A DNA stretch of 30,020 nt from Prevotella sp. (GTDB lineage Bacteria; Bacteroidota; Bacteroidia; Bacteroidales; Dysgonomonadaceae). The notes beneath the pieces were generated by a model. That model ran no database searches. It saw only the letters and a list, made by a program, of their open reading frames with translations, and was not told the origin of the DNA. The position numbers and the translations under genes are program-made. The DNA lies in NCBI GenBank assembly GCA_031263965.1, contig JAISES010000212.1:1-30020 (forward strand). The letters run 5' to 3'. This document shows, in pieces, positions 2,765 through 28,818 of the stretch (positions are counted from its first letter, which is position 1; each line of letters starts with the position of its first letter).

Positions 2765-3718
2765 ATGGCTGTTATAGGAATTGATTTAGGGGGAACAAAA
2801 ATTACAGGAGCTGTTTTCGACAACGATGGAAACATGCTTCACAAAGTATCTTCTTTGCTTGAGCACAGGCAGGGAAGCGAAGTAGGGGCATTAGTAAAGA
2901 GTACTATTGATAGTCTCATAGACTTACATAAAATTGCAGATATACAATCTGCCGGAATCTGTGTGCCCGGTATTGCCAATAGCAAAACCGGCAAAATATG
3001 GGCTCCGAATATCAAAGGATGGGATGACTATCCGTTACAAAAAGAAATTGAAGATCACTTAAAGAACCATTCTATAAAGATTGATATAGCCAGTGACAGG
3101 ACTTGCTATATACTTGGCGAAACGTGGAAAGGCGCTGCCATGGAGTGTAGCAATGCTCTGTTTATAGCTGTGGGAACAGGCATCGGAGTAGGTATTTTAG
3201 TTGATGGGAAAATTCTTCATGGACATGGAGATGTAGTTGGCGCAGCCGGTTGGTTGGCATTGGAAACTCCATATCTGGATGAGTATGAGATGTGCGGCTG
3301 CTTTGAAAGCCAGGCATCGGGAAATGGCATTGCATGGCAGACCAGAAAAATAATAAAAGGGGACACTCTTTTCAAAGAGAGCATACTTTATAATAAAGAT
3401 GTAGAAACAATTATCGCCCAGGATATATTTGAAGCATATGAACAAAAAGACCCATTGGCTATATTTGTTCTTGGCAAGGCTGTAAGAATGTGGGGAATGG
3501 CATCTGCTAATTTAGTAAGTTTGTTAAACCCCGAAAAAATCATATGGGGTGGAGGGGTTTTTGGCCCTGCATCGCAGTTTATAGACAATATCTATGAGGA
3601 GGCGTGTAAATGGGCGCAGCCTGTAAGTATTCGCAGGGTTTGTTTTGAACAGTCTCATTTATCAGGTGACGCGGGACTGTATGGTGCCGGTTATCTGGCT
3701 ATTCTTTCACTTAAATGA
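2765..3718 (+). CDS. ROK-family sugar kinase with a divergent substrate/zinc motif
   Basis: The 317-residue protein has the normal length and fold marks of ROK kinases: phosphate-binding IDLGGTK (residues 6-12), the catalytic base in IASDRT (Asp111) and the second nucleotide motif GTGIGVGIL (137-145). ROK enzymes phosphorylate hexoses or N-acylhexosamines with ATP in the cytosol. The usual ExGH motif, which contacts the sugar and supplies a zinc His, reads WLAL (163-166). The cysteine cluster is shortened to CGCFE (177-181). The enzyme may therefore use an unusual sugar or lack the structural zinc. It opens the operon and overlaps the MFS gene by 4 bp (ATGA), which suggests coupled translation. 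ROK repressors are unlikely because there is no N-terminal helix-turn-helix. Confidence 0.88.
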   Translation: MAVIGIDLGGTKITGAVFDNDGNMLHKVSSLLEHRQGSEVGALVKSTIDSLIDLHKIADIQSAGICVPGIANSKTGKIWAPNIKGWDDYPLQKEIEDHLKNHSIKIDIASDRTCYILGETWKGAAMECSNALFIAVGTGIGVGILVDGKILHGHGDVVGAAGWLALETPYLDEYEMCGCFESQASGNGIAWQTRKIIKGDTLFKESILYNKDVETIIAQDIFEAYEQKDPLAIFVLGKAVRMWGMASANLVSLLNPEKIIWGGGVFGPASQFIDNIYEEACKWAQPVSIRRVCFEQSHLSGDAGLYGAGYLAILSLK

Positions 3719-4884
3719 GTAAGTATATGTATAATAAAAATTTTGTCTACATCGCATCCTGTATAGGAATGGCATTCTTTGGCGTAGCCTTTATTGTAAT
3801 GGGCTCAGTATTGCCGTCTCTGACAGAGAAATATAGTCTCGATACTGTGGGCGCTTCATCTCTGGTGACATTTCTTCCGGTTGGCGTATTACTCGGATCG
3901 CTTATCTTCGGCCCTGTAGTAGACCGGTTTGGATATAAAATATTACTTATTGTCAGTACGCTCATAACTATATTGGGTATAGAAGGTTTATCTTTATTTG
4001 ATGATCTGTCAATATTGCGAGGTTGCATTTTCTTTATCGGACTGGGTGGAGGCATGCTTAACGGATCGACAAATGCTCTTGCATCAGATGTTTCCGATGA
4101 CCATAATCGTAGCTCCAGACTCAGCATATTGGGGGTTTCGTACGGGTTAGGAGCTTTGATTGTACCTTTTTTGCTTGGCGTACTTTCAAAAAATTACTCC
4201 TACGAAATAATCCTTCAGTGGACAGGGGTTTTCATGCTCTTTTGCGCAGCATATTTTATAGCGGTCAAATTTCCGGAGCCAAAGTTTAAACAGGGATTTC
4301 CTGCCAAACAGGCAGTATCCCTGCTTAAACAGCCGGTATTACTGGTTCTTAGTTTTTTCCTGTTTTTCCAGAGTGGAATGGAAGGCCTATCTAATAATTG
4401 GGCAACAAGTTATTTAAAAGCTGCAACATCTATCGAAGAAGGAGATATAGTATTGACCCTGACTTTTTTCGTATTGGGTATGACGGTAGCCCGTTTATTT
4501 TTGAGCTACATTTTTAAGAAGGTAAAGCAAAATCATGTCCTTTTTGGAGCAATGACGATAGCTTTGATAGGAATAGCTTTATTGAACCTGTCAACAACAT
4601 TTCCGGTAGCCACATCAGGTTTATTCTTAACCGGTGTTGGCTTGTCAGCGGGATTTCCTGTTGCGATCGGACTTATAGGCTCTGCATACAAACAAACATC
4701 AGGTACGGCAATAGGCATAGCTCTTTTTATAGCATTAGGCGGAAACTCTATCCTGAATTATGCTATGGGACATATTTCCAAAATATTCGGGATAGATTCC
4801 TTCCCTATATTTCTTGCTGTTTTGCTGATAATACAATCAATTATAGTATTTACAAATCCAAAAATTATTAATAATAAATCTTGA
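3715..4884 (+). CDS. MFS sugar transporter (inner membrane)
   Basis: The 389-residue protein has about 12 hydrophobic segments spread evenly. The major facilitator loop 2-3 signature appears as GPVVDRFGYK around residue 66. It lacks a cleavable signal peptide, as expected for an inner-membrane carrier. MFS proteins of this size move sugars or small solutes, usually with proton symport. Its start overlaps the stop of the ROK kinase, and the SIS gene begins 7 bp downstream, so the three are probably co-translated. The likely job is import of the sugar that the kinase then phosphorylates (inference from context). The exact substrate cannot be read from sequence. Confidence 0.88.
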   Translation: MSKYMYNKNFVYIASCIGMAFFGVAFIVMGSVLPSLTEKYSLDTVGASSLVTFLPVGVLLGSLIFGPVVDRFGYKILLIVSTLITILGIEGLSLFDDLSILRGCIFFIGLGGGMLNGSTNALASDVSDDHNRSSRLSILGVSYGLGALIVPFLLGVLSKNYSYEIILQWTGVFMLFCAAYFIAVKFPEPKFKQGFPAKQAVSLLKQPVLLVLSFFLFFQSGMEGLSNNWATSYLKAATSIEEGDIVLTLTFFVLGMTVARLFLSYIFKKVKQNHVLFGAMTIALIGIALLNLSTTFPVATSGLFLTGVGLSAGFPVAIGLIGSAYKQTSGTAIGIALFIALGGNSILNYAMGHISKIFGIDSFPIFLAVLLIIQSIIVFTNPKIINNKS

Positions 4885-4891
4885 GAAAATT

Positions 4892-5653
4892 ATGTTAGCA
4901 TTAGAATGGTTGGCAAATGCCCGCGGCATTATGCAAAAGATTGAAGAAACTCAGTTGGAAAATATCAAGAAGGCCGCATTGGTGATGGCCGACAGCATAG
5001 AATCGAACCATTGGGTGCATACGTTTGGTTGCGGACACGCTACAATACCGGTAGAAGAAATGTATCCGCGTATTGGTGGGTTTGTCGGTTTCCATCCTAT
5101 GGTAGAATTGCCTATGACATTCTTTACCGGAATAACAGGACAAATGGGGATTCATCAATTCTTATTTCTTGAACGTGCCGAAGGTTATGGTAATGCTATA
5201 ATGAAGGCATATAATTTCGATAAGCAGGATTGTATCTGGATTTTCTCACATACAGGTATTAATAATGTGAATATCGATGTGGCTATACGTGCAAAAGAAC
5301 TTGGAATGAAGGTTATCGTATTTGGTTCGGCTGCTGAGGCAAAAGGAAAAGTAACACGCCACCCGAGTGGAAAAACAATATTTGAGATAGCCGATATAGT
5401 AGTTGACTCCTGCGTGCCGGTGGTTGATGCATCTGTTCCGTTGAAGAACCATCAGGATAAAGTCGGTCCGGTGTCTACACTGGCTTTTGTAACAATGGTA
5501 TGGATGACAATAACTACTGTGGCTGAAATATTAGTCGGCAGGGGAGTTAAACTCTATATACATCCTTCACACAATGTTCCGGGAGATACTACTGCCCACG
5601 AACGCCTGGATGCATGCCTGGCCGAGTATAAGAAGCGGGTATCAAAAATATAA
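4892..5653 (+). CDS. SIS-domain phosphosugar-binding protein (COG4821/UPF0309-like)
   Basis: The 253-residue cytosolic protein carries a sugar-isomerase (SIS) fold: HTFGCGHA (residues 43-50) in the first strand-loop and FSHTGINNVNID (118-129), the Ser/Thr-rich phosphate-binding loop. A later stretch, HPSGKTIFEIADIVVDSCVP, is typical of the COG4821 group as I remember it. SIS proteins bind phosphosugars and act as isomerases, deaminases, etherases (for example MurQ on MurNAc-6-phosphate) or regulators. This is not MurQ by sequence. Position right after a kinase and transporter suggests it handles the phosphorylated sugar. No DNA-binding domain is present, so regulation is less likely than catalysis. 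Confidence 0.85.
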   Translation: MLALEWLANARGIMQKIEETQLENIKKAALVMADSIESNHWVHTFGCGHATIPVEEMYPRIGGFVGFHPMVELPMTFFTGITGQMGIHQFLFLERAEGYGNAIMKAYNFDKQDCIWIFSHTGINNVNIDVAIRAKELGMKVIVFGSAAEAKGKVTRHPSGKTIFEIADIVVDSCVPVVDASVPLKNHQDKVGPVSTLAFVTMVWMTITTVAEILVGRGVKLYIHPSHNVPGDTTAHERLDACLAEYKKRVSKI

Positions 5654-5665
5654 TATTCAGCAAAC

Positions 5666-6430
5666 ATGACAGAAGAGAAGAAATACATCGATTTGCAAAA
5701 AGAAACTTATGGAAACCTGAAGGGTTTGCCATATTCCTATGCTGTATTGCCATGGGGAGCAACAGAGCCGCATAATTACCATTTGCCTTATCTGACAGAT
5801 TGCTATCTGGCGCATGATATTGCCGTAGATGCCGTAGAAAAAGCCTGGGCAGAATACGGGGTAAAGGGAATGGTATTGCCGCCTATCCCGTTAGGAGCAC
5901 AGAATCCCGGACAGCGGGAGTTGCCTTTTTGTCTGCATACCCGCTACGAAACGCAGAAACATATCCTCAGCGATATAGTAGAATCTCTGAATTATCAGGG
6001 AATCCATATTCTAGTGATAATGAACGGGCATGGAGGCAACAGCTTTAAGCCTATGGTACGAGATCTGTGCGTCGATTATCCGCAAATGCTGATCGTAAGC
6101 TGCGACTGGTTCGCCGTAGAGTCTCAAAGCGGTTATTTTGAAAATAAAGACGATCATGCGGGTGAAATGGAAACTTCTGTCATGATGCATTATCATCCCG
6201 GTCTGGTAAATCTTGAAGTAGCCGGCGATGGAGCCGGTAAAACGTTCAATATAGAATCCTTGAACAATAAGGTTGGCTGGATGCCCCGTAACTGGGCAAA
6301 AACTACATCAGATACGGGGGTTGGCGATCCAGGGAAATCTTCGGCACAGAAGGGTAAAATCTTTGCCGGAGTTGTTACCGGTAAAATCGCCCGTTTATTT
6401 GATGAGTTAGTGAATAAAACAATATATTAG
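5666..6430 (+). CDS. Creatininase-family metal-dependent amidohydrolase
   Basis: The 254-residue protein has the creatininase-family signature GATEPHNYHLPYLTD, with Glu34, His36, His39 and Asp45 visible; Glu34, His36 and Asp45 match the metal ligands of the classical enzyme as I recall them. NGHGGN (His121) and DHAGEMETS (His163, Glu166) supply the rest of the di-metal site. The family hydrolyses C-N bonds in cyclic amides, formamides and related compounds in the cytosol. Creatinine use is unlikely in this sugar-catabolic operon; deacylation of an N-acyl or lactam-type amino sugar is an inference. It lies 12 bp after the SIS gene and 6 bp before the GH9 gene. Confidence 0.85.
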   Translation: MTEEKKYIDLQKETYGNLKGLPYSYAVLPWGATEPHNYHLPYLTDCYLAHDIAVDAVEKAWAEYGVKGMVLPPIPLGAQNPGQRELPFCLHTRYETQKHILSDIVESLNYQGIHILVIMNGHGGNSFKPMVRDLCVDYPQMLIVSCDWFAVESQSGYFENKDDHAGEMETSVMMHYHPGLVNLEVAGDGAGKTFNIESLNNKVGWMPRNWAKTTSDTGVGDPGKSSAQKGKIFAGVVTGKIARLFDELVNKTIY

Positions 6431-6436: not shown

Positions 6437-8242
6437 ATGAAACTACGATATTTACTGTCTTTTTTGATTGTATTTAGCTTTGCCATGGCAGATGCGCAAA
6501 CGGGATCATGGGTCAGGATAAATCAGTTGGGGTATCTTCCCGATGGGGTTAAGGTGGCCGTTTTTATGTCGGAGAAAGAAGCCGGTAATCCTGATTTTGA
6601 ACTAAAGAATGCCGGAACAAATGCAGTTGTATTTAAAGGCAAGGGGATTGTAACCAATGCTGAACGTTGGGGAATGAAAAGCGCTATGCGTTTGAATTTC
6701 TCATCGGTTATGGCCGGCGGAGAATATTATGTAGAATGTAATGGCGTAAAATCACCGTCTTTCCGCATCGGAGACAATGTTTATGACGGTTCGGCCGATT
6801 TTATACTGAAATACATGCGTCAGCAACGTTGTGGATTCAATCCGTATCTGGATACGGTATGTCATCAGCATGACGGGTTTATCGTAGATCATCCGGTACG
6901 TACAGGAGAGAAAATAGACGTACGCGGAGGATGGCACGATGCTTCGGATTACCTGCAATATCTGCCGACATCGGCCAATGCTACATACCAAATGCTGTTT
7001 GCATGGCAACAGACACCGGATAAAACCATATTCAAGGACGAATACGATGCTTCCGGTAAAAAAGGAGGCAATGGTATTCCTGATATTCTGGATGAAATAC
7101 GTTGGGGGTTGGAATGGATGATCCGGATGAATCCGGATTCGGCTGTTATGTTCAATCAGATAGCTGACGACAGGGATCATGCAGGGATGCGCTGGCCGTC
7201 GCGTGACTATTTGGATTATGGTTACGGAAAAGGAACCGGACGTCCTGTCTATTTTATTACAGGTAAACCTCAGGGCTTGGGCGAACATAAAAACCGTTCT
7301 ACGGGAGTGTCTTCTTCCGCAGCCAAATTTGCCTCGGCTTTTGCTTTAGGGTCAGAGGTATTTAAAGATATTGATCCGCAACTGGCGGGTATATTAAGCG
7401 AAAAATCCGCTTCTGCATATAGTTTTGGAGAGGCCATACCGGGTAATTTCCAGACGGCATGCATGGTATCGCCTTATTTCTATGAAGAAGATAACTGGGT
7501 TGATGATATGGAACTGGCAGCAGCAACGCAATATGTGGTTAAAAAAGATGTTTCGTGGTTAAAAAAAGCTGATTACTGGGGACAACTGGAAGAAGTAACT
7601 CCGTGGATGGAATTAGGCCGTGCCCGCCATTACCAGTTTTATCCGTTTGTCAATCTGGGGCATTATTTCCTGTCTCAATCAAACGATAAGGCTATAAGCG
7701 GCAAGTACGCCGGATACATGAAAAAAGGTCTGGATTGCTTGTTGAAACGGGCAAAAGAATATGACGACCCATTCCTTTATGGAGTTCCGTTCATTTGGTG
7801 TTCCAATAATTTAGTTGCTGCTGCTATTACTCACGCCCGTCTGTACAACCAGGCTTCCGGTGACGAAACGTATCTGGAAATGGAAGCGGCCCTGAGGGAC
7901 TGGCTGTTTGGCTGTAATCCGTGGGGCACATCCATGATTTGCGGTTATCCCGAAAGTGGAGATTCACCCATGAGATCACATTCATTCGTATCAGAGCAAC
8001 GGAATGATGTGCCATATGGGGGATTGGTAGACGGGCCTATTTATAAGTCAATATATGAAAGCCTGAGGGGAATTCACCTGAGATACGATGATCCGTATGC
8101 GCCATTCCAGTCCGGTGCGGCTGTATATCATGACGATCCGGGTGATTATTCATCTAACGAACCAACAATGGACGGTACTGCAAGTTTGAGTTTCTACCTT
8201 TCTACTATGGAAAAGATGGGTAAAACTCAAAAAAAAAAGTAA
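6437..8242 (+). CDS. GH9-family glycoside hydrolase with N-terminal Ig-like domain
   Basis: The 601-residue protein has a signal peptide (residues 1 to about 20, MADAQ end), so it works outside the cytosol. A CelD-type Ig-like domain (about 24-112, starting RINQLGYLPDG) precedes an (alpha/alpha)6 GH9 barrel. GGWHDASDY holds the paired Asp168 and Asp171 (catalytic base and helper), GCNPWGTSMICG is the usual His-loop region, and NEPTMD holds the likely acid Glu575. GH9 enzymes are mostly endoglucanases, but some cleave glucosamine-containing chains. The stop codon lies directly after an A10 run and an in-phase A AAA AAG heptamer. The deacetylase-like frame is open in the -1 phase from there, so the product may be extended by about 230 residues. 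Confidence 0.9.
   Translation: MKLRYLLSFLIVFSFAMADAQTGSWVRINQLGYLPDGVKVAVFMSEKEAGNPDFELKNAGTNAVVFKGKGIVTNAERWGMKSAMRLNFSSVMAGGEYYVECNGVKSPSFRIGDNVYDGSADFILKYMRQQRCGFNPYLDTVCHQHDGFIVDHPVRTGEKIDVRGGWHDASDYLQYLPTSANATYQMLFAWQQTPDKTIFKDEYDASGKKGGNGIPDILDEIRWGLEWMIRMNPDSAVMFNQIADDRDHAGMRWPSRDYLDYGYGKGTGRPVYFITGKPQGLGEHKNRSTGVSSSAAKFASAFALGSEVFKDIDPQLAGILSEKSASAYSFGEAIPGNFQTACMVSPYFYEEDNWVDDMELAAATQYVVKKDVSWLKKADYWGQLEEVTPWMELGRARHYQFYPFVNLGHYFLSQSNDKAISGKYAGYMKKGLDCLLKRAKEYDDPFLYGVPFIWCSNNLVAAAITHARLYNQASGDETYLEMEAALRDWLFGCNPWGTSMICGYPESGDSPMRSHSFVSEQRNDVPYGGLVDGPIYKSIYESLRGIHLRYDDPYAPFQSGAAVYHDDPGDYSSNEPTMDGTASLSFYLSTMEKMGKTQKKK
8229..8242 (+). other. Candidate -1 frameshift (or slippage) site joining GH9 to the deacetylase-like frame
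   Basis: Ten consecutive A bases (8229-8238) are followed by G and then the GH9 stop TAA at 8240-8242. In the GH9 frame the heptamer A AAA AAG (8233-8239) has the X XXY YYZ phase of the classical bacterial -1 slippery site, as in dnaX. A one-base slip back continues as AAA AAA GTA AAC into an uninterrupted frame to 8928. Alternatives are transcriptional slippage on the A-run, a real single-A loss, or a homopolymer sequencing error. A downstream stimulatory hairpin was not established. Confidence 0.6.
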
Positions 8243-8928
8243 ACAGCATAACAGATAGCCAGGGGGCTACTGTCCGGATCAATACAGACAGGAAGGTTAT
8301 TCATCTGATTTTTTCGGCGGATTCGGCATTTGAAGGCGCCGTTTCTATATTGAAAACGTTAGATAATAATAAAACTAAAGCTTCGTTCTTTCTTACGGGG
8401 AACTGCCTCCGTATGAAAGAACACGAAGCTGTGATCCGGGAGATTGTAAAGAAAGGGCATTATGTAGGAGGTCATTCCGACAAGCATTTATTGTATGCTC
8501 CATGGGGAGCAGAACGCGGTAAGAGCTTGGTAAGCGCCGATAGCCTGATAAACGATCTTCGCCGGAATATGATTGAATTAGCAAAATTCGGGGTGGATAT
8601 TTCCGGCGTAAACTATTATTTACCTCCTTTTGAATGGTATAACAAGGATCAAGTGAGGCTAATTGAATCTCAGGGGCAAGTGGTGGTCAATTTTACCTCC
8701 GGTTTAAGAACGGCAGCCGATTACACGACTCCGGATATGAAAAACTATATGCCGTCCCGGAAACTGATCGATCAATTGTATGCGTTCGAAAAGGAAAATA
8801 ATCTGAATGGCAGCATTATACTTATTCATCCGGGGACCCATGCGGCCAGAACAGATAAATTGTATTTAAGACTGGATGAGATAATAAAAACACTAAAAAA
8901 GCAAGGCTATTCTTTTGAACGATTATAA
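8233..8928 (+). CDS. Polysaccharide deacetylase-like (NodB-fold) domain, read as a -1 extension of GH9
   Basis: The frame is open from 8224 but has no ATG, GTG or TTG before a TTG at 8350, which lies inside the domain after its first strand. That makes fusion to GH9 the more natural reading. The NodB-fold marks are FSADSAFEG (8311 on) in place of the usual FDDGP, FFLTGN, GGHSDKH (His at 8473 and 8485), LPPFEWYN and a terminal IHPGTH. The first Asp of the DD pair, the usual catalytic base, is Ala (codon 8317), while the metal-binding Asp (8320) remains. I recall GH9 proteins of Bacteroidota that carry this domain as one polypeptide, with PPFEWYN conserved. Activity as a deacetylase is doubtful; a binding role is possible. 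The next gene starts 10 bp after the stop. Confidence 0.7.
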   Translation, partial: KKVNSITDSQGATVRINTDRKVIHLIFSADSAFEGAVSILKTLDNNKTKASFFLTGNCLRMKEHEAVIREIVKKGHYVGGHSDKHLLYAPWGAERGKSLVSADSLINDLRRNMIELAKFGVDISGVNYYLPPFEWYNKDQVRLIESQGQVVVNFTSGLRTAADYTTPDMKNYMPSRKLIDQLYAFEKENNLNGSIILIHPGTHAARTDKLYLRLDEIIKTLKKQGYSFERL

Positions 8929-8938
8929 AATAGATGGT

Positions 8939-11900
8939 ATGAAAAGGTTATTGATTATTTGTGCATCTTTTCTGTTTTTGACTCCTTGCGGAGCTCAGGC
9001 GCAGGATATTTCCGATGAGATACGGAATGAAATAAGTGATTTTCTTACCCAATTCGCCAATAAGGATATTAGGACTTATCGGATTAAGGTGGATTCTGTT
9101 AATATCAAAGGTAAATCTATTAAGTTTTTTACAGGTATAAATTTGTCTTACGTTCCGTTTCGTCAAGACGATGTGGATAATATTTATATGCACATAAAAG
9201 GATTGTTGCCTGAAAAATATAAAAAGTATAAGGTAGAACTTATAACGGATACACAACCGATAGAGAATCTTATTCCTTTTGGTAAAAAGAAAAAGGACTT
9301 GTTTGCCAATAAATTGGATAAACCGTTGGTTTCTAATTTATCTCGTCCTTATGCATCAGAAAAAGGTTTGCAAAACCATCATCTGGCAATTTGGCAAAGT
9401 CATGGCTGGTATTATGAGCAAAAACTGGCCAGATGGGAATGGCAACGGGCGCGTATTTTTCAAACAGTAGAGGATCTGTATACGCAGAGCTATGTACTTC
9501 CATATCTTGTGCCGATGCTGGAAAACGCGGGAGCAAATGTTCTGTTGCCACGTGAGAGGGATACGCAACGCCATGAGATAATCGTTGATAATGATAAGAG
9601 TACGATGGGTTCCTCTTATGCCGAAAAGTCCGGAAAAGAATCATGGGTTGCAGGAACAAATAGCGGATTTGCTGATACAAAAACATTTTATCTGGATGGC
9701 GAAAATCCGTTTAAGCAGGGTACATATCGTCAGGTAAAAACAGTTTCGAAAGGGGATGTAAGCCAATGTGAATGGAACCCCGATATACCTGAAAAAGGAG
9801 AGTATGCGGTTTATGTATCTTATCAGACATTGCCCAACAGTACAGATGGGGCGCGTTATTCGGTTTATCATTCAGGCGGAAGAACGGATTTCAGTATCAA
9901 TCAAAAAATGGGTGGCGGAACCTGGATATTTTTAGGATTTTTTACTTTCGATAAAGGAAAAAATGATACCTGCAAGATCGTACTGACCAACGAGGATAGC
10001 AAGCAGGGACGTATTCTCACTGCCGATGCCGTCAAAATAGGAGGGGGGACAGGTAATATAGCCCGTCTGCCTCATCCGGGCGGCATTGTAACAGATAATA
10101 TAAAAAGCTCGGAAGCGATAGATGATAGTAATCACAAGAAACTACCGGCGATTGATTATAAACCTGAGACCAGCGGCTATCCGCGATATACCGAGGGCGC
10201 CCGGTACTGGCTCCAGTGGGCGGGAGCTCCCGACAGTATATACAACAGGAGTGAGAGTAAGAATGATTATACGGACGATTATCAAAGCCGTGGATTCTGG
10301 GTGAATTATATCGCAGGCGGTTCTTCAGTATTGCCTCAATCCGGCGGGTTGAATGTGCCTGTTGATCTGGCTATGGCTTTCCATACAGATGCAGGAACCA
10401 CATATAATGATTCTATAATCGGTACTCTTGGAATATACATGACGCATACTAACGGAGAAGTGTTTGGAAATGGTAAAACACGTTGGGCGTCAAGAGATCT
10501 TACAGATGTCATTATGGATGAAATAACAAAAGATATCCGCCGTGAATATGAGCCTGAATGGACGCGCCGCCATATGTGGAACCGTTCTTATAGTGAAGCC
10601 CGTGTGCCTGATGTGCCGACTATGCTTCTTGAACTGTTGTCGCATCAGAATTTTGCTGATATGAAATATGGGCTCGATCCTCGTTTTCGTTTTACGGTTA
10701 GCCGCTCTATTTATAAAGGGATGTTGAAATTTGTTGCCGGACAATATAATTACGAATATGTTGTCCAGCCGCTTCCCGACAAATCGTTTGGAGCAGAATT
10801 TACCGGAGAAACGCAGGTTAATCTTATGTGGAAGCCTGTTGAGGATATTACGGAACCTACTGCAAAACCGGATAAATATATTGTTTATACACGCGTTGGC
10901 GACGGCGGTTTTGATAATGGAGTTATCGTGCATGATACAAAACTCAATTTAGCCATTGAAAAGGATAGAATGTATAGTTTCAAAGTTGCAGCAGTAAATG
11001 ATGGCGGCGAAAGTTTCCCGTCAGAGATACTTTCTGTATACAGGAAATCGAATGAAAAAGGGCAGGTGTTGGTTGTGAATGGTTTCGATCGTTTGTCTGC
11101 ACCATATAGTTTTGCCACAAAAGATAGCATTGGCGGTTTTGTCGATTTCATCGATCATGGTGTTCCGGATAAAAAAGAGTATAATTTTATAGGGAGCCAA
11201 TATGAATTCAGGCGAAGGATTCCGTGGATGGACGATGATGCAGCCGGTTTTGGTGCAAGTAGTGCTAATTTTGAGACAACAGTCGTTGCCGGAAATACAT
11301 TTGATTATCCTGCTATTCATGGGAAGGCTATAGCAAAAGCGGGTTACTCTTTTATATCAACCGGTCGCGATGCTGTTATCGATGGATTTGTTGATATGAA
11401 CCGGTACAAACTGGTTGATGTCATACTGGGTAAGCAAAGACAAACCAAGATCGGCAGAGGCGTACACCCTGCTGAATTTAAAATTTTCACAAAAGATTTC
11501 CAGGATAAAATTGCAACATATTGCAAACAAGGGGGAAATATTTTTGTCAGCGGGGCATATGTTGCTTCCGATCTGTGGGATACTGAAAATTCCACTAATG
11601 AAGATAAGTCATTTGCTACTGATGTGCTAAAATATAAATGGCGGGTGGGCAGAGCCGCTGTAGAAGGCAAAGTAAAGGGTGTATTGTCTCCGTTTGCTTC
11701 CATTACAGGGAATTATGAATTTTATACGAAGTTGAATCCTGTATTCTATGCCGTAGAATCGCCGGATGCAATCGAGCCGGCAGGAGATAATTGTTACACC
11801 GTATTCAGATATGCCGAAAATAATCTAAGTGCAGGAGTGGCCTATTCGGGCGATTATAAAACTTGCATACTGGGTTTTCCGTTCGAAGTTGTAAAAGATG

Positions 11901-11953
11901 AAGCGGGAAGGGATTATCTTATGAAAAGTATTCTTTCATTTATATTCCAATAG
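8939..11953 (+). CDS. Large secreted amidase-like protein with inserted golvesin/xanthan-lyase CBD-like domain and FN3
   Basis: The ATG at 8939 is preferred over 8915 because it directly begins the signal peptide MKRLLIICASFLFLTPCGAQ; the product has 1004 residues. The fold appears to be an Amidase_3 (N-acetylmuramoyl-L-alanine amidase-type) zinc hydrolase cut in two: SHGWYY (His155) and TVEDL (Glu178) lie before an inserted golvesin-type beta-sandwich (about 225-370), and FHTDAG (His482) and LLELLSHQNF (Glu565) lie after it. These four residues fit the H-E-H-E pattern of the family. A fibronectin III domain (about 655-735) and a C-terminal alpha/beta domain resembling a class I amidotransferase fold follow. 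Databases often label such proteins xanthan lyase, probably only for the inserted domain. It is likely periplasmic and would cut an amide in a glycan-peptide. Confidence 0.75.
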   Translation: MKRLLIICASFLFLTPCGAQAQDISDEIRNEISDFLTQFANKDIRTYRIKVDSVNIKGKSIKFFTGINLSYVPFRQDDVDNIYMHIKGLLPEKYKKYKVELITDTQPIENLIPFGKKKKDLFANKLDKPLVSNLSRPYASEKGLQNHHLAIWQSHGWYYEQKLARWEWQRARIFQTVEDLYTQSYVLPYLVPMLENAGANVLLPRERDTQRHEIIVDNDKSTMGSSYAEKSGKESWVAGTNSGFADTKTFYLDGENPFKQGTYRQVKTVSKGDVSQCEWNPDIPEKGEYAVYVSYQTLPNSTDGARYSVYHSGGRTDFSINQKMGGGTWIFLGFFTFDKGKNDTCKIVLTNEDSKQGRILTADAVKIGGGTGNIARLPHPGGIVTDNIKSSEAIDDSNHKKLPAIDYKPETSGYPRYTEGARYWLQWAGAPDSIYNRSESKNDYTDDYQSRGFWVNYIAGGSSVLPQSGGLNVPVDLAMAFHTDAGTTYNDSIIGTLGIYMTHTNGEVFGNGKTRWASRDLTDVIMDEITKDIRREYEPEWTRRHMWNRSYSEARVPDVPTMLLELLSHQNFADMKYGLDPRFRFTVSRSIYKGMLKFVAGQYNYEYVVQPLPDKSFGAEFTGETQVNLMWKPVEDITEPTAKPDKYIVYTRVGDGGFDNGVIVHDTKLNLAIEKDRMYSFKVAAVNDGGESFPSEILSVYRKSNEKGQVLVVNGFDRLSAPYSFATKDSIGGFVDFIDHGVPDKKEYNFIGSQYEFRRRIPWMDDDAAGFGASSANFETTVVAGNTFDYPAIHGKAIAKAGYSFISTGRDAVIDGFVDMNRYKLVDVILGKQRQTKIGRGVHPAEFKIFTKDFQDKIATYCKQGGNIFVSGAYVASDLWDTENSTNEDKSFATDVLKYKWRVGRAAVEGKVKGVLSPFASITGNYEFYTKLNPVFYAVESPDAIEPAGDNCYTVFRYAENNLSAGVAYSGDYKTCILGFPFEVVKDEAGRDYLMKSILSFIFQ

Positions 11954-12135: not shown

Positions 12136-12189
12136 GTACCTCATCACAATAAGTTTTTATTAAAATGGCAAAATTGATGCAGACCAGTT

Positions 12190-12417
12190 TTCCCAATGGA
12201 TGTTTCCGGATAGTTATCGGGCTTTGTCTTGTTCAGCTGACTTACCCGCATCCTTTAGCCTTAGATCCGGTTTCTGTACGTCAGACCGGATGTTTGCCGC
12301 TATCTTCCTTCGGAATTCCAGCTCGCGATGGACACCCTTGGCGTTGGCTAAACACTTCCCTCTATCAGGGTGTGTAAGGGACTTGCACCCATTAGAATAT
12401 ACCCATGCTGGGCGAAC
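12190..12417 (-). mobile_element. Truncated group II intron (5' end, domain I only)
   Basis: On the minus strand the sequence begins GTTCGCCCAGCATGGGTAT at 12417 and continues with GGGTGCAAGTCCC, then CCAACGCCAAGGGTGTCCAT. This matches the 5' end of Bacteroidota group II introns as I remember them (normally GTGCGCCC; here one change). Only about 230 bp remain. There is no reverse transcriptase/maturase gene, domain V or 3' end, so it cannot splice or move. The inner boundary is approximate. Its 5' end lies 6 bp beyond a terminator stem, a site preference known for class C introns. Frames predicted across it are artefacts. Confidence 0.75.
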
Positions 12418-12647: not shown

Positions 12648-13502
12648 TTAAATACCAAACGCCAGTTTTACGGTCACGCCTGCCGACAGCAAATTCACTT
12701 TATCCACATAAGCTTTTTCTCCCTGTTTAGCAGTCAGCAAACTATTCGTCTTTAGTTTATACGGCTCGTTATTATTGTAATTCACCAGTGAAACATCTTT
12801 CTTCCCCGGCGAAACATCCGATAGCCCATAGTCAATATAAAGACCTGTATATAACGACAATTTATCGCTTAATTTCCATTTCAATCCGGTCTCTACCGAT
12901 AAAGCCAGATTTAATCCAAAAGACAAATCATCGGATGAAGATACATTGTTGATAGCGGTAAAGCCATGTTCCGGCATATTGTAAAATTGCTGTAATGTTT
13001 CAGGAAACTCGCCCCATGTTGTCAATTTCGCCGCTGCCAGATCGTATTTTCCTGAAATGGCAAAACCTAATTTTATACCTGGAACTGCATAAAAAGTAGT
13101 AGTTTCCGATACCGGCAATTGATACTGTATCCGTATTGGTATACTCAAACAGGTAACATGTTGAGTTTCCTTATAATTTGTATAACTACTGTTGAAATAC
13201 ATCTCTTCTGTGCGGGTATCATCCGAATATGTTTCCGTGTACCTGCCCGCAAGCCCGTCACTTTCCGCATCCGTAGAATAGAAATCCACTTCCAATCCGG
13301 TATTAATACCCCATTTTGAATTAAGAAAATAAGTATAACCGATACCCAAGCCGCCGCTCAGTTTATTCTTGACGGCAACCTGTTCCGATTTGTACTGTAA
13401 ACCGGAATATCCGCCTTTGCCATACAATTGTATCTCCTGTTGCGCTTTCAGCATACCACATAACAAGATAAAGGCGGAAATTAATATTATTTTAATTTTC
13501 AT
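12648..13502 (-). CDS. Outer-membrane beta-barrel protein
   Basis: The 284-residue protein starts with a signal peptide (MKIKIILISAFILLCGMLKAQ). The rest shows alternating polar/apolar strands: GGYSGLQYKSE, GGLGIGYTYFLN, GINTGLEVDFYS, SIPIRIQYQLPV, KLGFAISG, LALSVETGLKWKL, LYTGLYIDYGLS, and a C-terminal strand ending TVKLAFGI. This is the pattern of small porin-like barrels (OMP_b-brl type) of Bacteroidota. The function is unknown: it could be a pore, or a structural partner of the secreted amidase encoded 28 bp upstream. It is the last gene of the - strand block. Confidence 0.8.
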   Translation of the reverse strand: MKIKIILISAFILLCGMLKAQQEIQLYGKGGYSGLQYKSEQVAVKNKLSGGLGIGYTYFLNSKWGINTGLEVDFYSTDAESDGLAGRYTETYSDDTRTEEMYFNSSYTNYKETQHVTCLSIPIRIQYQLPVSETTTFYAVPGIKLGFAISGKYDLAAAKLTTWGEFPETLQQFYNMPEHGFTAINNVSSSDDLSFGLNLALSVETGLKWKLSDKLSLYTGLYIDYGLSDVSPGKKDVSLVNYNNNEPYKLKTNSLLTAKQGEKAYVDKVNLLSAGVTVKLAFGI

Positions 13503-13530
13503 AAATCTGCGTTTTTTAGAAAGGTTCTTT

Positions 13531-16500
13531 TTATTTTTCGATAATTATTGTTGCCGCCTGGTTACCAACACGTAATATATAATATCCGGGACGCAAACCT
13601 GACACATCTACTGTTGTTTGAGCACCGGTTCCCTGATATTTTCCAGCCATGCGACCATTAATATCGAACAGGTTGATAAGGTCGTTTGACGTTGCCTTCC
13701 CGTTTTCTACAGTAATATAAGACTTCGCCGGATTCGGATATACCTTGAGAGCCTGCCCTGTATTGACCACATTCATATATATTGATCCGCAAACAGATAA
13801 TGTTTCCCCATCAACAGTAGTCAGCTCCACGCTGTATTCTCCGCTCATACCCCGGTCGTGCAAATATAAATGCGGACGTGTGCCTTCATTGCCGGCCACA
13901 GGTTCCCCATCTTTATACCATTGATATCCGGCAAATCTATATCCACCGTTTGTCGCAGGATTTAAATTGACGGCAAGCACATTATCCCAATATTGGCGGA
14001 TAATAGATATGTCAAACAAACGTGTAACAGTTATCTTGTATTCTTTAGAAGTTATTCCATCGGCTGCCAAAGACCGGATAATAGAAGTCACCGATCCCGG
14101 ATGATCCAATGTAACCACTTCTTCATATGTTACACTGCCGTCAGCGGCAGGGATAGCTGTTATGGTAAGGCTGCTTTCATCACAAGATAATGTTGCGAAG
14201 TATTCGGTTGTAGCAGGATTGAACAGCGGGGTTAATCCATCAACAATCAGATCCGACAGATTCGCATCTTTACTTACTTCTTTAGTTGTAAAGGTGTTTT
14301 TGCTGTCATCTTCCATTTCAACACCGTCCTTATCTTTGAATCCGGATATAGATATAGTATATCGGGTATTGTAATCAAGTATGCCTGTAAATGTGAATGT
14401 TACCGTTTTTTTGTCTGCCGACCACTGAGGTGCGGTTAATTCTCCGGTTGCCGTTAGATCCGCGTTATTGATGACAATTGTTCCGGCGGTCGCATCATCC
14501 ATTTCAGTACTGAACGTTACCGAAACACTGCTAAGTTTATGCGATACTCCGGTGACGCCTTTTGCCGGGCTTGTTCCAATGACAGTCGGCTTGACTATTT
14601 TATTGACAGGAATGTCATAAATAGCCCGCGCTGGCGTGGTGAAGCTGTTGTCGGCTTTCGGCAGGGCGTAAACCCGCAACCGTTCCATGTTGTTATCTAT
14701 GGTATAAAGGTTACCGGCTGCGTCAAACGCCACGCCTATGGCGTATGCGCCGGTTGCCGTAGAAATGGAATGCAATTCGCTAAGCGAAGGCACATTGGTA
14801 TTGTCGTCAAAAGTAATCTCAAATACTTTCACAGTACCCGAAGCCGTTCCTATTGCCAGCAATTTGCCGTCCACACTGACAGCCATACCGCCCTGATAAG
14901 AACCGGCAAGGCCTGCCTGAACGCCAAAGTTGGTTAAAGTCCCCGCAGATGTTATATGTATTAGCGATGGTATGGCAACGCTATTAGTAGCTCTGTATTG
15001 AGATATCCACCAACCATCGCGTCCGTCGGGCGCAATAGAGGAATTAAAGTTCTGTTGCAAATTTCCATTTGCCGCATCGTCGTACACGATAGCGTCCGGC
15101 GCGGCTGTCCATGGCAATGTCGCACTTCCTATATCGTACCGGTTAATATTTCCCGTATTGTTTGCGCCCGCATCGAACGTAAACAGCTTGGCGTTTTCAG
15201 CTATTCCTTCTACCCAGCTATGAGGAATACGGCCATGTATAACATCTCCTCCGGCATTGGTTGCTATGCCGGTCGCATCGAGCGTTCCTCCGAATACAGG
15301 AGTAAAGGCTGCTGTAGGATTTGCCGGATCCATTATCCATACGCCGGAATTGGCCATGCTGTTATCCGCCAGAAAAACTTTGCCGTCGGGAGCTACCGAC
15401 GGACGATACAAACCGCTCCATATTACGCCTCCGGCATAAGCCGTCGCACCCTGTGAAGTTACATCGTCCAAAGCAGCATTAAAGATATAAACGCCCCGGG
15501 TGGTTGTCCGTGTCGGATTCGGAGCTCCTGCCGTAATTGTACCGCCGGAGCCTTCCGATGCATACACACGTCCGAAGAAGGGGCTTTCAAAGCTATTATC
15601 TACGGCTACGCCGCGCGGCCCCCAAAACAGGAAGCGCTCCGAGTTGTCGGAAATTTTAGTAACTTCTTCTATAGTTGTTGCCGTTGTAGCGACAGTCCAT
15701 GAATAAGAACCTGAAACAGTCAAATCGTCCGAAAAATCATGCATTACTGTATTCACTCCTTTTGGTAACGATCCTGCGTTGAATGATGCTGCCGGTATTG
15801 CTTCCCCGTCTTTATAAACGGATATGATCACCGATTGAGCATTATCATTTAATGTAAATTGGAAAGTGTTGTCTGTCCGTGAAAGTTCGGACGCATAAAC
15901 ATTGGCTTTCGCAGGATCCAAACCCGCTTCTACCGTATAGGGCGTCTGCGCCGACGTGGTAAAGCTGTTGTCGGCTTTCGGCAGGGAATAAACTATCAGA
16001 CGTTCGACACCGTTGGAAACCATGTAAAGGTTGCCGGCAGCATCGAATGCTATGTCTGTCAGATAGGAGGAGGTAGTAGTAGCCCACCAGCTAATCGTAT
16101 GTTGCAATGTAAGCGTCGGCACATTACCTGCATCATAGGTAATGCTGTACACTTCTACTTCTCCTGCTCTTGTACCCAATGCCAATAACGTTCCGTCGGC
16201 ATTTACCGTCATACTGCCCTGTAAGCTGCCGTTCTGACCGATGTTACCGGCGCTGTTGTAATCTATCGCTCCGTTGGTAACATGAATAAGCGACGGCACT
16301 GCTTCGCTACTGTTTGCCCTGTATTGCGCAATCCACCAGCCGCCGCGCGCATCAGAAGCAATACTGCCGTAAGCATTGATTATTTTATTAGGCGTAATAT
16401 CATTGTAAATAACAGCGCTAGGCGCATCCGTCCAAGGTAACGCACTTAAATCGCCTATATCGTAACGGTTGATATTGCCATGTACCGGACTGCTGGTTCT

Positions 16501-19404
16501 GTCGAACGTGAATAACCGCGTATCCGTTCCTGAACCGCTTACCCAGCAATCCTCAACAGGATTATGAATAGTTACGCCATTGCTGTTTTTCGATGTACCC
16601 GCAGCATCCACCGTTCCGCCGAATACAGGCGTAAATGCCGCCGAAGGATTCGCCGGATCCATGATCCAAACGCCGGGATTGGCGTAATGCGAAGCAGGAA
16701 TATATACTTTCCCGTCGGGAGCTACTGCAGGGCGCGTCGGTCCATACTGGTAACCGGTACCATTATTAGTTCCCCATGCTACACTGCCGTTATAACTGTT
16801 CGTTTGCTGATTGGTAATGTCTTCAAAAGCAGCGTTGAGTACATATATACCCCTTTGCGTAGACCTTGTCGGGTTGGGGCTTCCTACCGTAATAGCGCCA
16901 TCGCCGGACTCTGCCACATATACCCGCCCGAAGAACGGACTTGCAGGATTGTTATCCACTGCTACGCCGCGCGCCGCATAAAACAGGAACTGTGGCGAGT
17001 CGTTGGATATTTTAGTCGGCATTCCTACGGCGCGTGCACTTGCGGTAATACTCCATGTATAATCGCCTAGCGGCACTTCCGCCGAGAAATCATGTTCGAT
17101 TTCATGTACGCCTTTGGACAGGGCTCCGGCATTGTAATTCGCCGCAAATTCACCCTCCTTGTAAAGTGTAATCACCACCGACTGTGCATCTTCGTTCAGC
17201 GTGAACTTAAATTTCTTGCCGGCGGTTACCGAAAGTTCGGATGCATATATATTGGCGGTCGGCTTGGTCGCGGTTTTATAACGCGCGTAACCCTGCGCCT
17301 GCGCCAGTATCATTACATCAATATCCACGCCTGTCACTTTTGCGGCGGCAGCCATGTAAGTGGACGGTGCGGCTCCAAGCCCGTTTTCGGGATATTTATC
17401 CGATACTTTTACAGCTTGGTCGAATCCGTCAGTGATGTCAAACAGCGCTACGCCCACTTGCGTGGCATCGGCATTGGATACCGGCGACGCCATGTAGGTA
17501 TGCTGCGCATAGCGGAAAATGGCAAAGCCTCCCGGCGTGGCACCTAACGTATAGCCTGCCGTTTCGGTAAATACTTTTTTATTTGCCAGCGATGACCTGT
17601 CGGCTGCCGTCCAGTCGAACCGGTATTCGACAGGCAGCGTTACAGGGCTATCCACGTAGAAGTGGTCGCCGTTCCCTGTGCGGGAAATAGTGAACGTATA
17701 ATTCGCACCCCACAGTGCTTCCGTATAGTTGTCAGCGTCCATCATATATTTTGAAGCCGGTTCACCGCTTCCGCCGATAAATTCAAAACCGACAATACGG
17801 ATTTGTTTGGAAGAACTGGAGGTAACCGCCGGCACATAGACTTTGCAGTCTGAGCGGCGACCGCTTACGGTAAAGGTTTCGCCGACTATTCCCGTGCCCC
17901 AGTTGCCCTGTTTTTGCGACTGGAAGAGCACGGTCGGGGCAGCGTTGTCGTCGTCCCATGTATAAACTTTAAAATAACGACCGCCGGTTTCCGGCAAGTC
18001 AATAGTTTCCTTGTTGCAAGCAACCAGAAAATCGTCCGCCGTAAAGGCAATATCACTCAGTATGGCCGAACCTCCGGCAATGCCCGTCAAGTCCAGTTCT
18101 TTTATTTTAGTACCGGTGACAGCATCCACCACGAGTATTTTAGGCTCGGTGGTGAGTACATATAATTTTTCTTTACGGAACAGCGCCCGCTTAACGATTG
18201 CTCCCTGCAACCAGTCGGGATCCTGATTGTTTAATACTTCTTCAAAATCGTATCGGTTCACCGCCGTGATGCCCGGATCCTGTACGGGATCGGGGTAATC
18301 AACATACGGCGTTCCGTCGTCCGACAAGTTTTTATTGGGAGTAAAGACTTTTGCATAAGCCGTTTTTCCGGCTTCTACCACTACTTCCACTGTTTTGGGA
18401 TCGTAGTCGCTGCCGGCAGGCTGCACCGTAATTTGATATGTGCCGGGCGACAGGTCATAGAATGCAAAAATACCATTGTACCAGTTATCCGTAGTATAGG
18501 AGTCCAGTGTAGTGGCGCCGGAAGCGTCTTTCAGCGTCACGGTAGCCGCATTCAGTGGCAGGTATTGGTCGTGGCTGCCGGCAACATATTTAAAATTAGG
18601 CTGATTGAGCAGCGTTACCCGCTCGTTTTCGCTTTTTACAAACCCACCGATAACGCCTTTGTCCGGCATGTTGCGGTTAAAATAGGCATGGTAAAATCTG
18701 TAGAAACTGTAGGCTTCCAGCTTGCAGTAGTCGTCGTTGCACAAGCGGTGCGTTTCCGGTGCATAGTCGTGAAACGAGCCTTCCGACAGGAAGCCGGGCA
18801 CCGTCAGCGGACGCAATACGCCCAGCCCCAAATTATCGCCGTAGAACGTGAAATCGCCCCGCAGCATGGGACTTGCGCTTGTCCATACAGTCAGTTGATT
18901 GGTTATTTGAACAGGTCCCGCCGCCTGTACCATCGGCAAACTGGCAGCCACCGTCGGCTGGTTGTCATAGCCATGATACAGTAACAACAAATAATTGGTC
19001 GTCGTATTGATGGCATTGCTGTGAATGGACAGGAAAGCGTCTACGTTATTAGCATTTGCCTCGGCAGCGATTTCAGACAAGTCTCGGTCACCGCCGCCTG
19101 CATATTGCGCGCCATCCCTTATCCCGCTGGTGTTAGTCGTGCGGGACATGATTACGGTAGCGCCTGCGGCCTGTAGCATATCGCGCAGGGCAAGTCCTTT
19201 CACCAGATTGGATTTCGATTCCCAGTAGCCGTCAGGATTACTCCATGTTTCGGGTACGGGAATTGTCCAGATACTGCGGTCATTGGAATCATAGCCGCCA
19301 TGCCCCGGATTCAGATATATTTTTATACCGGTCATGGGCCCGTCAACCGCATAAAATGCTATACTTGTCAAAAGAGCAAATATAAGGAAAGTTAGTTTTT
19401 TCAT
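13531..19404 (-). CDS. Giant secreted N-acetylmuramoyl-L-alanine amidase-like protein with duplicated propeller-like modules and T9SS sorting tail
   Basis: The 1957-residue protein has a signal peptide (1-19) and an N-terminal Amidase_3 domain (about 27-245) with the zinc/catalytic set LNPGHGG (His35), Glu62, SIHSNA (His128) and FLSEGSF (Glu208). This family cleaves the MurNAc-L-Ala amide of peptidoglycan. Next come a carboxypeptidase-regulatory-like domain (about 250-365), a DUF4623-like region (about 390-710), two similar modules of about 440 residues each (about 715-1165 and 1168-1590), an SbsA-type Ig-like domain (from about 1592), a cadherin-like sandwich and an Ig-like segment. The end (about 1881-1957, LKVYPNPAKSYITV onward) is a type IX secretion C-terminal signal. 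The protein should be exported across the outer membrane and held at the surface or released. Its codons look more GC-rich than those of the GHL10 gene at 669. Confidence 0.85.
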   Translation of the reverse strand: MKKLTFLIFALLTSIAFYAVDGPMTGIKIYLNPGHGGYDSNDRSIWTIPVPETWSNPDGYWESKSNLVKGLALRDMLQAAGATVIMSRTTNTSGIRDGAQYAGGGDRDLSEIAAEANANNVDAFLSIHSNAINTTTNYLLLLYHGYDNQPTVAASLPMVQAAGPVQITNQLTVWTSASPMLRGDFTFYGDNLGLGVLRPLTVPGFLSEGSFHDYAPETHRLCNDDYCKLEAYSFYRFYHAYFNRNMPDKGVIGGFVKSENERVTLLNQPNFKYVAGSHDQYLPLNAATVTLKDASGATTLDSYTTDNWYNGIFAFYDLSPGTYQITVQPAGSDYDPKTVEVVVEAGKTAYAKVFTPNKNLSDDGTPYVDYPDPVQDPGITAVNRYDFEEVLNNQDPDWLQGAIVKRALFRKEKLYVLTTEPKILVVDAVTGTKIKELDLTGIAGGSAILSDIAFTADDFLVACNKETIDLPETGGRYFKVYTWDDDNAAPTVLFQSQKQGNWGTGIVGETFTVSGRRSDCKVYVPAVTSSSSKQIRIVGFEFIGGSGEPASKYMMDADNYTEALWGANYTFTISRTGNGDHFYVDSPVTLPVEYRFDWTAADRSSLANKKVFTETAGYTLGATPGGFAIFRYAQHTYMASPVSNADATQVGVALFDITDGFDQAVKVSDKYPENGLGAAPSTYMAAAAKVTGVDIDVMILAQAQGYARYKTATKPTANIYASELSVTAGKKFKFTLNEDAQSVVITLYKEGEFAANYNAGALSKGVHEIEHDFSAEVPLGDYTWSITASARAVGMPTKISNDSPQFLFYAARGVAVDNNPASPFFGRVYVAESGDGAITVGSPNPTRSTQRGIYVLNAAFEDITNQQTNSYNGSVAWGTNNGTGYQYGPTRPAVAPDGKVYIPASHYANPGVWIMDPANPSAAFTPVFGGTVDAAGTSKNSNGVTIHNPVEDCWVSGSGTDTRLFTFDRTSSPVHGNINRYDIGDLSALPWTDAPSAVIYNDITPNKIINAYGSIASDARGGWWIAQYRANSSEAVPSLIHVTNGAIDYNSAGNIGQNGSLQGSMTVNADGTLLALGTRAGEVEVYSITYDAGNVPTLTLQHTISWWATTTSSYLTDIAFDAAGNLYMVSNGVERLIVYSLPKADNSFTTSAQTPYTVEAGLDPAKANVYASELSRTDNTFQFTLNDNAQSVIISVYKDGEAIPAASFNAGSLPKGVNTVMHDFSDDLTVSGSYSWTVATTATTIEEVTKISDNSERFLFWGPRGVAVDNSFESPFFGRVYASEGSGGTITAGAPNPTRTTTRGVYIFNAALDDVTSQGATAYAGGVIWSGLYRPSVAPDGKVFLADNSMANSGVWIMDPANPTAAFTPVFGGTLDATGIATNAGGDVIHGRIPHSWVEGIAENAKLFTFDAGANNTGNINRYDIGSATLPWTAAPDAIVYDDAANGNLQQNFNSSIAPDGRDGWWISQYRATNSVAIPSLIHITSAGTLTNFGVQAGLAGSYQGGMAVSVDGKLLAIGTASGTVKVFEITFDDNTNVPSLSELHSISTATGAYAIGVAFDAAGNLYTIDNNMERLRVYALPKADNSFTTPARAIYDIPVNKIVKPTVIGTSPAKGVTGVSHKLSSVSVTFSTEMDDATAGTIVINNADLTATGELTAPQWSADKKTVTFTFTGILDYNTRYTISISGFKDKDGVEMEDDSKNTFTTKEVSKDANLSDLIVDGLTPLFNPATTEYFATLSCDESSLTITAIPAADGSVTYEEVVTLDHPGSVTSIIRSLAADGITSKEYKITVTRLFDISIIRQYWDNVLAVNLNPATNGGYRFAGYQWYKDGEPVAGNEGTRPHLYLHDRGMSGEYSVELTTVDGETLSVCGSIYMNVVNTGQALKVYPNPAKSYITVENGKATSNDLINLFDINGRMAGKYQGTGAQTTVDVSGLRPGYYILRVGNQAATIIIEK
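14638..15958 (-). repeat. Intragenic duplication, module 2 of the giant amidase
   Basis: This stretch and 15959-17260 encode the same succession of motifs in the same order: YASELS, GVAVDN, SPFFGRVY, VAPDGKV, GVWIMDPANP, TPVFGGT, GNINRYDIG, GWWI(A/S)QYRA, IPSLIH/VPSLIH and LPKADNSFTT. Runs of DNA identity remain, for example around GAATACAGG at 15292 and 16621. The offset between matching points is about 1.32-1.35 kb. Boundaries are approximate. Confidence 0.85.
15959..17260 (-). repeat. Intragenic duplication, module 1 of the giant amidase
   Basis: This is the N-terminal partner of the module at 14638-15958, with the same motif order. It is slightly longer, with extra residues around the GTGYQYGPTRP segment. 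The repeated VAPDGKV and FDAAGNLY motifs suggest a beta-propeller of NHL/SMP-30 type, possibly a binding or display platform. Confidence 0.85.
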
Positions 19405-19421
19405 TATCTCGTTCCTCCCGA

Positions 19422-20339: not shown

Positions 20340-20393
20340 ATATAAAGATTTTTAGCTAATTTTCATTACAGTATATATTTTTTTTCAGCTATA

Positions 20394-21848: not shown

Positions 21849-21870
21849 CTTTATTGTTCAATTTTTTGTG

Positions 21871-23322: not shown

Positions 23323-23330
23323 ATATAAAA

Positions 23331-25208: not shown

Positions 25209-25225
25209 ATTTTTATTTTTTTATA

Positions 25226-28723: not shown

Positions 28724-28818
28724 AGTACATCTGTTTAATAACATAAAAATAAAAATAAACTTTTCTAAGGTTTAACTCTTTCGCAAATTTTCGGAAAAAG
28801 TTGTAGCTAGAGATCAAA

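Follow-up and report, generated by a model that had tools for sequence, protein, structure and literature searches.

A GH9 glycosidase gene with a putative programmed recoding site leading into a deacetylase-like domain in Bacteroidota

The gene described here lies in a 30,020-nucleotide (nt) stretch of Prevotella sp. DNA (contig JAISES010000212.1, analysed at its whole length and called the window below), where the open reading frame (ORF) for a glycoside hydrolase family 9 (GH9) enzyme closes on a run of ten A's (A10), a G and a stop codon, and a NodB/CE4-like deacetylase domain lies open behind it in the -1 frame. We consider it likely that this join is a conserved programmed recoding site, at which RNA polymerase would slip on A10 in the window, and ribosomes would shift by -1 in Sphingobacteriaceae-like orthologues, so as to yield GH9 alone together with a GH9-deacetylase fusion. 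The original prediction had proposed a programmed -1 site with these two outputs, and is supported by the recurrence of the arrangement in distant genera, by purifying selection and by the finding of no +1 join among the 257 loci read. Of the two routes that it offered, slipped transcripts appear more likely for the window than the dnaX-type ribosomal route (runs of 9-10 and no upstream motif, as at 27 similar sites). Orthologues of the gene from another bacterial family do carry a dnaX-type version, with A6G and a Shine-Dalgarno-like motif.

Frame layout at the join and its recurrence among homologues

Matches to PF00759 (213 bits) and PF02927 (78 bits) predict that the upstream ORF encodes a GH9 enzyme (Table 1). 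Its product ends in ...TQKKK, encoded by the DNA 3' end CAA AAA AAA AAG TAA, and, as had been stated from the sequence, the closing codons AAA AAG TAA hold A AAA AAG in the phase of a -1 slippery site. The -1 frame is open from before the A run to a stop ending at 8928; counted from 8236 it comprises 230 amino acids (aa) and matches PF01522 (44 bits), which bears out the earlier call of a NodB-fold domain in a frame without an early start. No ATG, GTG or TTG stands ahead of the window's deacetylase domain, and the first one 3' of the run, TTG at 8350, lies within it. The calculated masses, 67.5 kDa for GH9 and 26.1 kDa for the -1 piece, agree with the products of about 67 and 93 kDa that had been forecast.

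Table 1. Features of the window, with those of the join first
Feature	Position	Strand	Evidence
GH9 enzyme, CelD_N immunoglobulin-like and GH9 domains, predicted unshifted product, 601 aa	6437..8242	+	PF00759 E 1e-62; PF02927 E 1.2e-21
A10 run, then G; proposed RNA-polymerase slippage site	8229..8238	+	Exactly 10 in this assembly; A9/A10 at same position in 27 other -1 homologues
Slippery heptamer A_AAA_AAG	8233..8239	+	X XXY YYZ phase, checked against GH9 frame
0-frame stop TAA directly 3' of slippery site	8240..8242	+	Sequence
NodB/CE4-like deacetylase domain, -1 frame	8236..8928	+	PF01522 E 2.7e-11; closest solved sequence 4m1b E 6e-7
Candidate downstream RNA structure	8240..8299	+	60 nt 3' of run, minimum free energy -12.9 kcal/mol, z -2.65
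ROK kinase, MFS transporter, SIS-domain sugar isomerase, creatininase-family hydrolase, upstream of GH9	2765..6430	+	Domain matches; same order in Dysgonomonas hofstadii (L041)
Group II intron match	12161-12332	-	Rfam RF02001, 78 bits (gathering 32)
Polysaccharide-utilisation-type cluster: SusC-like, SusD-like, DUF4623, GHL10, PD40, outer-membrane barrel	12648-28744	-	

Homologues of the GH9 protein were sought in 199 relatives, in the window's family, in 393 genomes of the order and 395 of the phylum, and further in 400 genomes of the order of genome G609, in 79 of the family of G836 and in named genomes (80 loci kept of 316), with at most the best 30 matches of each search being read. Sixty extra regions were picked by hand (43 for a short GH9 frame, 17 for a long one), so that the proportions given below are not prevalences. 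A script located the GH9 end and the deacetylase frame in 257 loci: the frame is kept across the join in 142 and shifted by -1 in 76 and by +1 in none, while 39 have no adjoining deacetylase. Eight duplicate loci, three ending inside GH9 and one artefact (L169, called a -1 join by the script and dropped as its deacetylase match begins only at residue 86) were then removed. The remaining 245 rows were scored as 138 in-frame, 44 in -1 with A6-7, 28 in -1 with A9-10 and 35 domain-less. In a set that was unselected for frame length (the best 30 of 40 matches in the 199 relatives), 18 loci were in-frame, eight in -1 and four domain-less. Nine pairs among the 245 rows have identical GH9 sequences: eight are in-frame pairs (137 loci being 129 sequences) and one, L222/L223, is a -1 pair (72 being 71). 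One locus, L207, was called in-frame by the script but on inspection has A10 and a -1 shift at the join and breaks frame again within the deacetylase, through either decay or a sequencing error. It is still counted as in-frame in the 245-row tree and join statistics, and its correction leaves 137 in-frame loci.

The presence of the slippery site at the join is more than chance: the 3.52-Mb MAG has runs of at least ten A's at six places, and an in-phase A6 heptamer stands at the join in all 72 of the -1 loci, as against 7 of the 138 scored in-frame (6 of 137 corrected). The comparison of homologues that had been proposed as a check thus came out in two parts. The heptamer is kept wherever the domain lies in -1, and varied, non-slippery joins do exist, but in homologues with one continuous frame; since they are confined to these, two gene states are separated and the idea of recoding stands. 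The same state may extend beyond the loci read, as of the 119 nearest database proteins, 71 are short and 21 end exactly in KKK, which is consistent with further members of the long-run class described below.

Two classes of slippery join

The -1 joins fall into two classes. Class I comprises 44 loci, all of family code f121 and spread over eight genus codes; f121 is probably Sphingobacteriaceae, its genus g219 being Sphingobacterium (e.g. S. puteale, L237, and S. athyrii, L238). The run here is short, A6 in 43 loci and A7 in one, followed by G, with A_AAA_AAG in phase in 44 of 44 and a stop 1 nt past the run in 38. Every class I locus has GGAGG, GGGAG or AGGAG within 20 nt upstream, ending 7-13 nt 5' of the heptamer, and this motif occupies two different codon phases, which speaks against mere conservation of the protein (of the 138 in-frame homologues, for which a broader zone of 90 nt was counted, 26 also have one of the three 5-mers). 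Class I sites pair with the anti-Shine-Dalgarno at -10.2 kcal/mol on average, compared with -5.8 in mononucleotide shuffles, and the 60 nt downstream have a mean folding z of -0.89 (standard error, se, 0.18), compared with 0.04 (se 0.13) for a control stretch 200 nt further on. With heptamer, upstream Shine-Dalgarno-like motif and downstream folding all present, the class I signal is, by its sequence, of the dnaX type.

Class II comprises 28 loci with a long run, A10 in 24 and A9 in four, never 6-8, all in -1. Its members are the window, D. hofstadii and other genomes of the window's family, Rufibacter psychrotolerans, R. glacialis and R. roseus, a metagenome-assembled genome (MAG) of Ignavibacteria (L083), L141 (family code f135) and 14 genomes of g219, of which L207 would be the fifteenth. 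None of the 28 has GGAGG, GGGAG or AGGAG within 20 nt before the run, including the window, which thus lacks a Shine-Dalgarno-like stimulator of this kind; such a stimulator is not universal among dnaX-type frameshift sites. Pairing with the anti-Shine-Dalgarno does not exceed that of shuffles (-3.8 versus -4.2), the runs lie in all three phases, the next base is G in 25 and C in three, the stop comes 1 nt past the run in 10 of the 28, and downstream folding is weak (mean z -0.60, se 0.24, versus -0.30, se 0.21, for the control stretch). We read class II as polymerase slippage because of this fixed length of 9-10, the lack of an upstream motif, the free phase and the -1 direction. A run of about nine or more stands at the junction, and both its length and the layout around it are conserved, as would be expected of programmed transcriptional slippage. 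RNA polymerase slips efficiently on nine A's, and transcripts of Thermus dnaX gain one extra A or more, with larger gains progressively less frequent (PMC5009743, PMC1088944).

Taken together, these features suggest how the gene would work. Most transcripts in the window would be read in the 0 frame to the TAA, giving the 601-aa GH9 enzyme, while in a fraction of transcripts RNA polymerase would slip on A10 and add one A, giving a GH9-deacetylase fusion of about 830 aa, to which ribosomal -1 slippage at A_AAA_AAG may contribute. The Sphingobacteriaceae-like orthologues would make the same two products by a -1 ribosomal frameshift at A_AAA_AAG, aided by the Shine-Dalgarno-like motif and probably by downstream structure. 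In either case, fusion would supply the start-less deacetylase with the GH9 N-terminus (a signal peptide by eye) and tether it to GH9. The sequences themselves show how the frames are laid out, that this layout recurs, that there are two classes of signal and that the -1 domain is under selection; from this we infer that slippage occurs and how efficient it would be, that there is export and what each product would do.

Several observations weigh against polymerase slippage as a full account. In the window itself, the 60 nt past the run fold well (z -2.65); conservation of a single direction (-1) has been taken to point to the ribosome and not to transcription (PMC3711429); and runs of 9-10 A's hold an in-phase A_AAA_AAR in any phase, which together with the uniform direction means that class II may include a ribosomal share. 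The length of the run is not locked either, as A10-A11 stands at the join in three in-frame homologues (L020, L171, L265). The domain past the join has a higher ratio of nonsynonymous to synonymous substitution rates (dN/dS) than GH9 in every pair that allows both estimates. Finally, tRNA-Lys(CTT), tried as a discriminator between the classes, failed as such. ARAGORN finds it in the window's MAG (L297) and in class II genomes G012, G489, G1031, G836, G024, G050 and G043, and equally in class I genomes G1017, G1125, G1165, G1218, G1223 and G914; the loci returned for class I genomes G609, G567 and G842 and for class II genomes G1321 (Rufibacter) and G1323 (Ignavibacteria) held other tRNAs and no close copy of it. 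In L020, L171 and L265, where both domains share one continuous frame, slippage would shorten the product rather than lengthen it.

The best-surviving alternative, which we nevertheless regard as unlikely, is that the window site is itself a dnaX-like -1 ribosomal frameshift at A_AAA_AAG, to which the long run merely adds slipperiness. This would account for the in-phase heptamer with a stop directly behind it, for the -1 direction in 72 of 72 slip loci and for the downstream folding just mentioned, and class I orthologues carry the complete dnaX-type signal. Seven nucleotides would suffice for such a site, however, yet the run is 9-10 long in 28 of 28 class II loci; the Shine-Dalgarno-like motif of 44 of 44 class I loci is absent from all 28; and a ribosomal heptamer sits poorly with runs in all three phases that are followed by C in three of 28. 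The presence in the window's MAG of tRNA-Lys(CTT), a tRNA believed to work against slippage on AAG in Thermus (PMC5009743), points the same way, but class I genomes have it too.

Other explanations, selection and evolutionary history

Long A runs gain and lose bases easily, and the run could in principle serve phase variation, in which changes of its length at the DNA level would turn the fused gene on and off, leaving GH9 alone in the off state in which the sequenced genomes happen to be caught. The instability of homopolymers and the three in-frame homologues with A10 or A11 would fit such switching. Runs of at least nine A's are, however, unevenly divided, with 28 (29 with L207) in -1, three in-frame and none in +1, one genome per species being compared. 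A10 is also unchanged in both members of the pairs L015/L016, L018/L025, L183/L192 and L220/L233, in which GH9 synonymous divergence (dS) is 0.29-0.87, and 44 orthologues arrive at the -1 layout with no more than six or seven A's. We rejected phase variation as the main explanation on the frame skew and the retention of A10, and consider it improbable.

The original prediction had also allowed that an A was lost or miscounted in this one assembly. An assembly error, or a recent inactivating indel that left the deacetylase a decaying remnant, would be easy to imagine in a homopolymer within a MAG that is 82.7% complete and in 527 contigs (3.52 Mb; the window is contig 59), and the domain has been lost in 35 of the 245 rows. 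Neither explains why the same layout recurs in isolates and in many genera, why purifying selection acts on the domain past the join, which is intact in 71 of 72 loci, or why no +1 case occurs among the 257. We therefore rejected this account on recurrence and selection and hold it to be very improbable.

Least probable of all is separate synthesis of the deacetylase by re-initiation or coupling near the GH9 stop, which the class I Shine-Dalgarno-like motif just ahead of the stop and a GTG or TTG in the deacetylase frame, upstream of or at most 40 nt past the run in 16 of the 72 -1 loci, might favour, but which we rejected on the start-codon counts: 2 of the 72 have an ATG in that stretch, in the window the first start codon lies within the domain, the product would lack the GH9 N-terminus, and both domains form one continuous frame in 137 homologous loci.

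Selection on the -1 domain was assessed by comparing -1 loci two by two, in 19 pairs. Eleven pairs allow an estimate of its dN/dS, which lies at 0.06-0.27, and the others are saturated or identical, so that at the level of sequence the domain is clearly under purifying selection. Its ORF is full length in 71 of the 72 -1 loci, the short one being L215.

A FastTree tree of the 245 GH9 sequences was used to count changes of state, which do not tell gain from loss. The long-A state changes 14-15 times, with 11-12 of these changes forced by well-supported branches, and slip versus in-frame state changes 24-25 times. Among 16 independent supported-branch pairs that differ in frame state (L207 left out), the heptamer is concordant in about 12 and opposite in none, a concordance that arises partly by construction, every -1 locus having the heptamer. 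Classes I and II have exchanged about twice on the tree, so the clean split between them rests on few independent events.

Domain-less GH9 genes retain the ROK-MFS-SIS-creatininase neighbourhood in L045, L047 and L048, and ROK-MFS-SIS without the creatininase gene in L115. As several lineages keep only GH9, GH9 alone would seem to be a useful product too. In L044 (5800-5852), the tail of a short GH9 ORF holds, in another frame, what by eye are the last deacetylase residues, as though a deletion had removed the bulk of the domain; in L081, the order is the reverse, with a homologue of the deacetylase (35% identity) ahead of GH9 rather than behind it.

Known systems and the setting of the gene

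Slippage and frameshifting are mechanisms already known; on their putative occurrence in the GH9/deacetylase gene family we found no report in the open-licence literature (main texts). The nearest precedent for class II is dnaX of Thermus thermophilus (PMC5009743, PMC1088944), likewise a cellular gene with nine or ten A's and two product lengths. It is a different gene, enzyme and phylum, and there the long product is unshifted and the short one arises via slippage, whereas in GH9 the short product would be unshifted and slippage would add a domain. Class I shares with Escherichia coli dnaX (described here partly from general background; PMC5009743, PMC4066793) the in-phase heptamer, the upstream Shine-Dalgarno-like motif and the downstream folding; the E. 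coli shift shortens the product, the GH9 shift would lengthen it, and the window site lacks the motif. Another glycosidase that needs a -1 shift, at A-AAA-AAT, is the alpha-L-fucosidase encoded by fucA of Saccharolobus solfataricus (PMC8037382), which is archaeal and in which the shift joins two parts of one enzyme, whereas that in GH9 would add a second enzyme domain. The GeneTack clusters of conserved frame transitions (PMC3711429) rest on the same kind of comparative evidence, and a term search of the main text of that survey found no deacetylase, cellulase or GH9 cluster.

In Bacteroidia, the anti-Shine-Dalgarno of the ribosome is sequestered and Shine-Dalgarno sequences are not recognised in initiation (PMC9976891). 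The class I motif is striking as Bacteroidia ribosomes mostly ignore such motifs. A parallel is the +1 frameshifting of prfB, reported for 523 of 726 genomes of Bacteroidia, with no exception among the Sphingobacteriales analysed (PMC8710568), which also depends on a Shine-Dalgarno sequence despite the occluded anti-Shine-Dalgarno; it differs in being +1 and in autoregulating release factor 2, where GH9 would use -1 in a glycosidase gene. Class I sites thus make it testable whether elongating Bacteroidia ribosomes use the occluded anti-Shine-Dalgarno. As a speculation that we hold possible rather than probable, one family of secreted-enzyme genes in Bacteroidota and relatives would keep a fixed short-plus-fused output through two interchangeable signals, A9-A10 polymerase slippage and an internal Shine-Dalgarno-driven -1 shift, the latter read by elongating ribosomes with occluded anti-Shine-Dalgarno, so that the share of enzyme carrying the deacetylase could respond to ribosome composition, e.g. 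to the supply of bS21.

If the recoding is real, it would affect a widespread gene that belongs to the cell and not to a mobile element, and would determine what share of the enzyme has an extra domain. Its two mutually exclusive signals would offer a natural comparison of polymerase slippage with ribosomal frameshifting in one orthologous gene. The -1 domain also escapes annotation: for example, the S. puteale and S. athyrii proteins are annotated as 608-aa 'glycoside hydrolase family 9 protein' without a deacetylase, while the domain lies in -1 at the loci assigned to them (L237, L238).

The deacetylase itself belongs to a distinct subfamily. Across 200 aligned domains, HSDxH, P-x-(Y/F)-EWYN and H-x-GT are conserved, and both His of HSDKH, the metal-binding HxxxH, are present at 100% (rounded down), in keeping with a CE4/NodB fold and its metal-binding histidines. 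In the canonical CE4/NodB motif, TFDD carries the catalytic Asp. This motif was not found: the window reads FSAD, and the aligned subfamily mostly F-TGH, F-TGD or F-SAD, which makes deacetylase activity uncertain.

The minus-strand polysaccharide-utilisation-type cluster of the window includes a 1957-aa protein with Amidase_3 (N-acetylmuramoyl-L-alanine amidase) and a type IX secretion tail, which suggests an amino-sugar or peptidoglycan-type substrate. It is a reasonable guess that the GH9 locus breaks down an amino-sugar glycan, perhaps derived from peptidoglycan.

Runs of at least ten A's occur at six places in the whole MAG, and inspection by eye of the five other than the GH9 join recognised no second recoded gene. 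One A10 run, at L003 position 392 (contig 115), falls within a long open frame, which to the eye looks like a gene for a CoaBC-type flavoprotein. The gene that follows the deacetylase frame in the window (8915-11953, plus strand) has a Golvesin_C domain and overlaps the end of that frame by 14 bases if a TTG start is used; an ATG stands at 8940.

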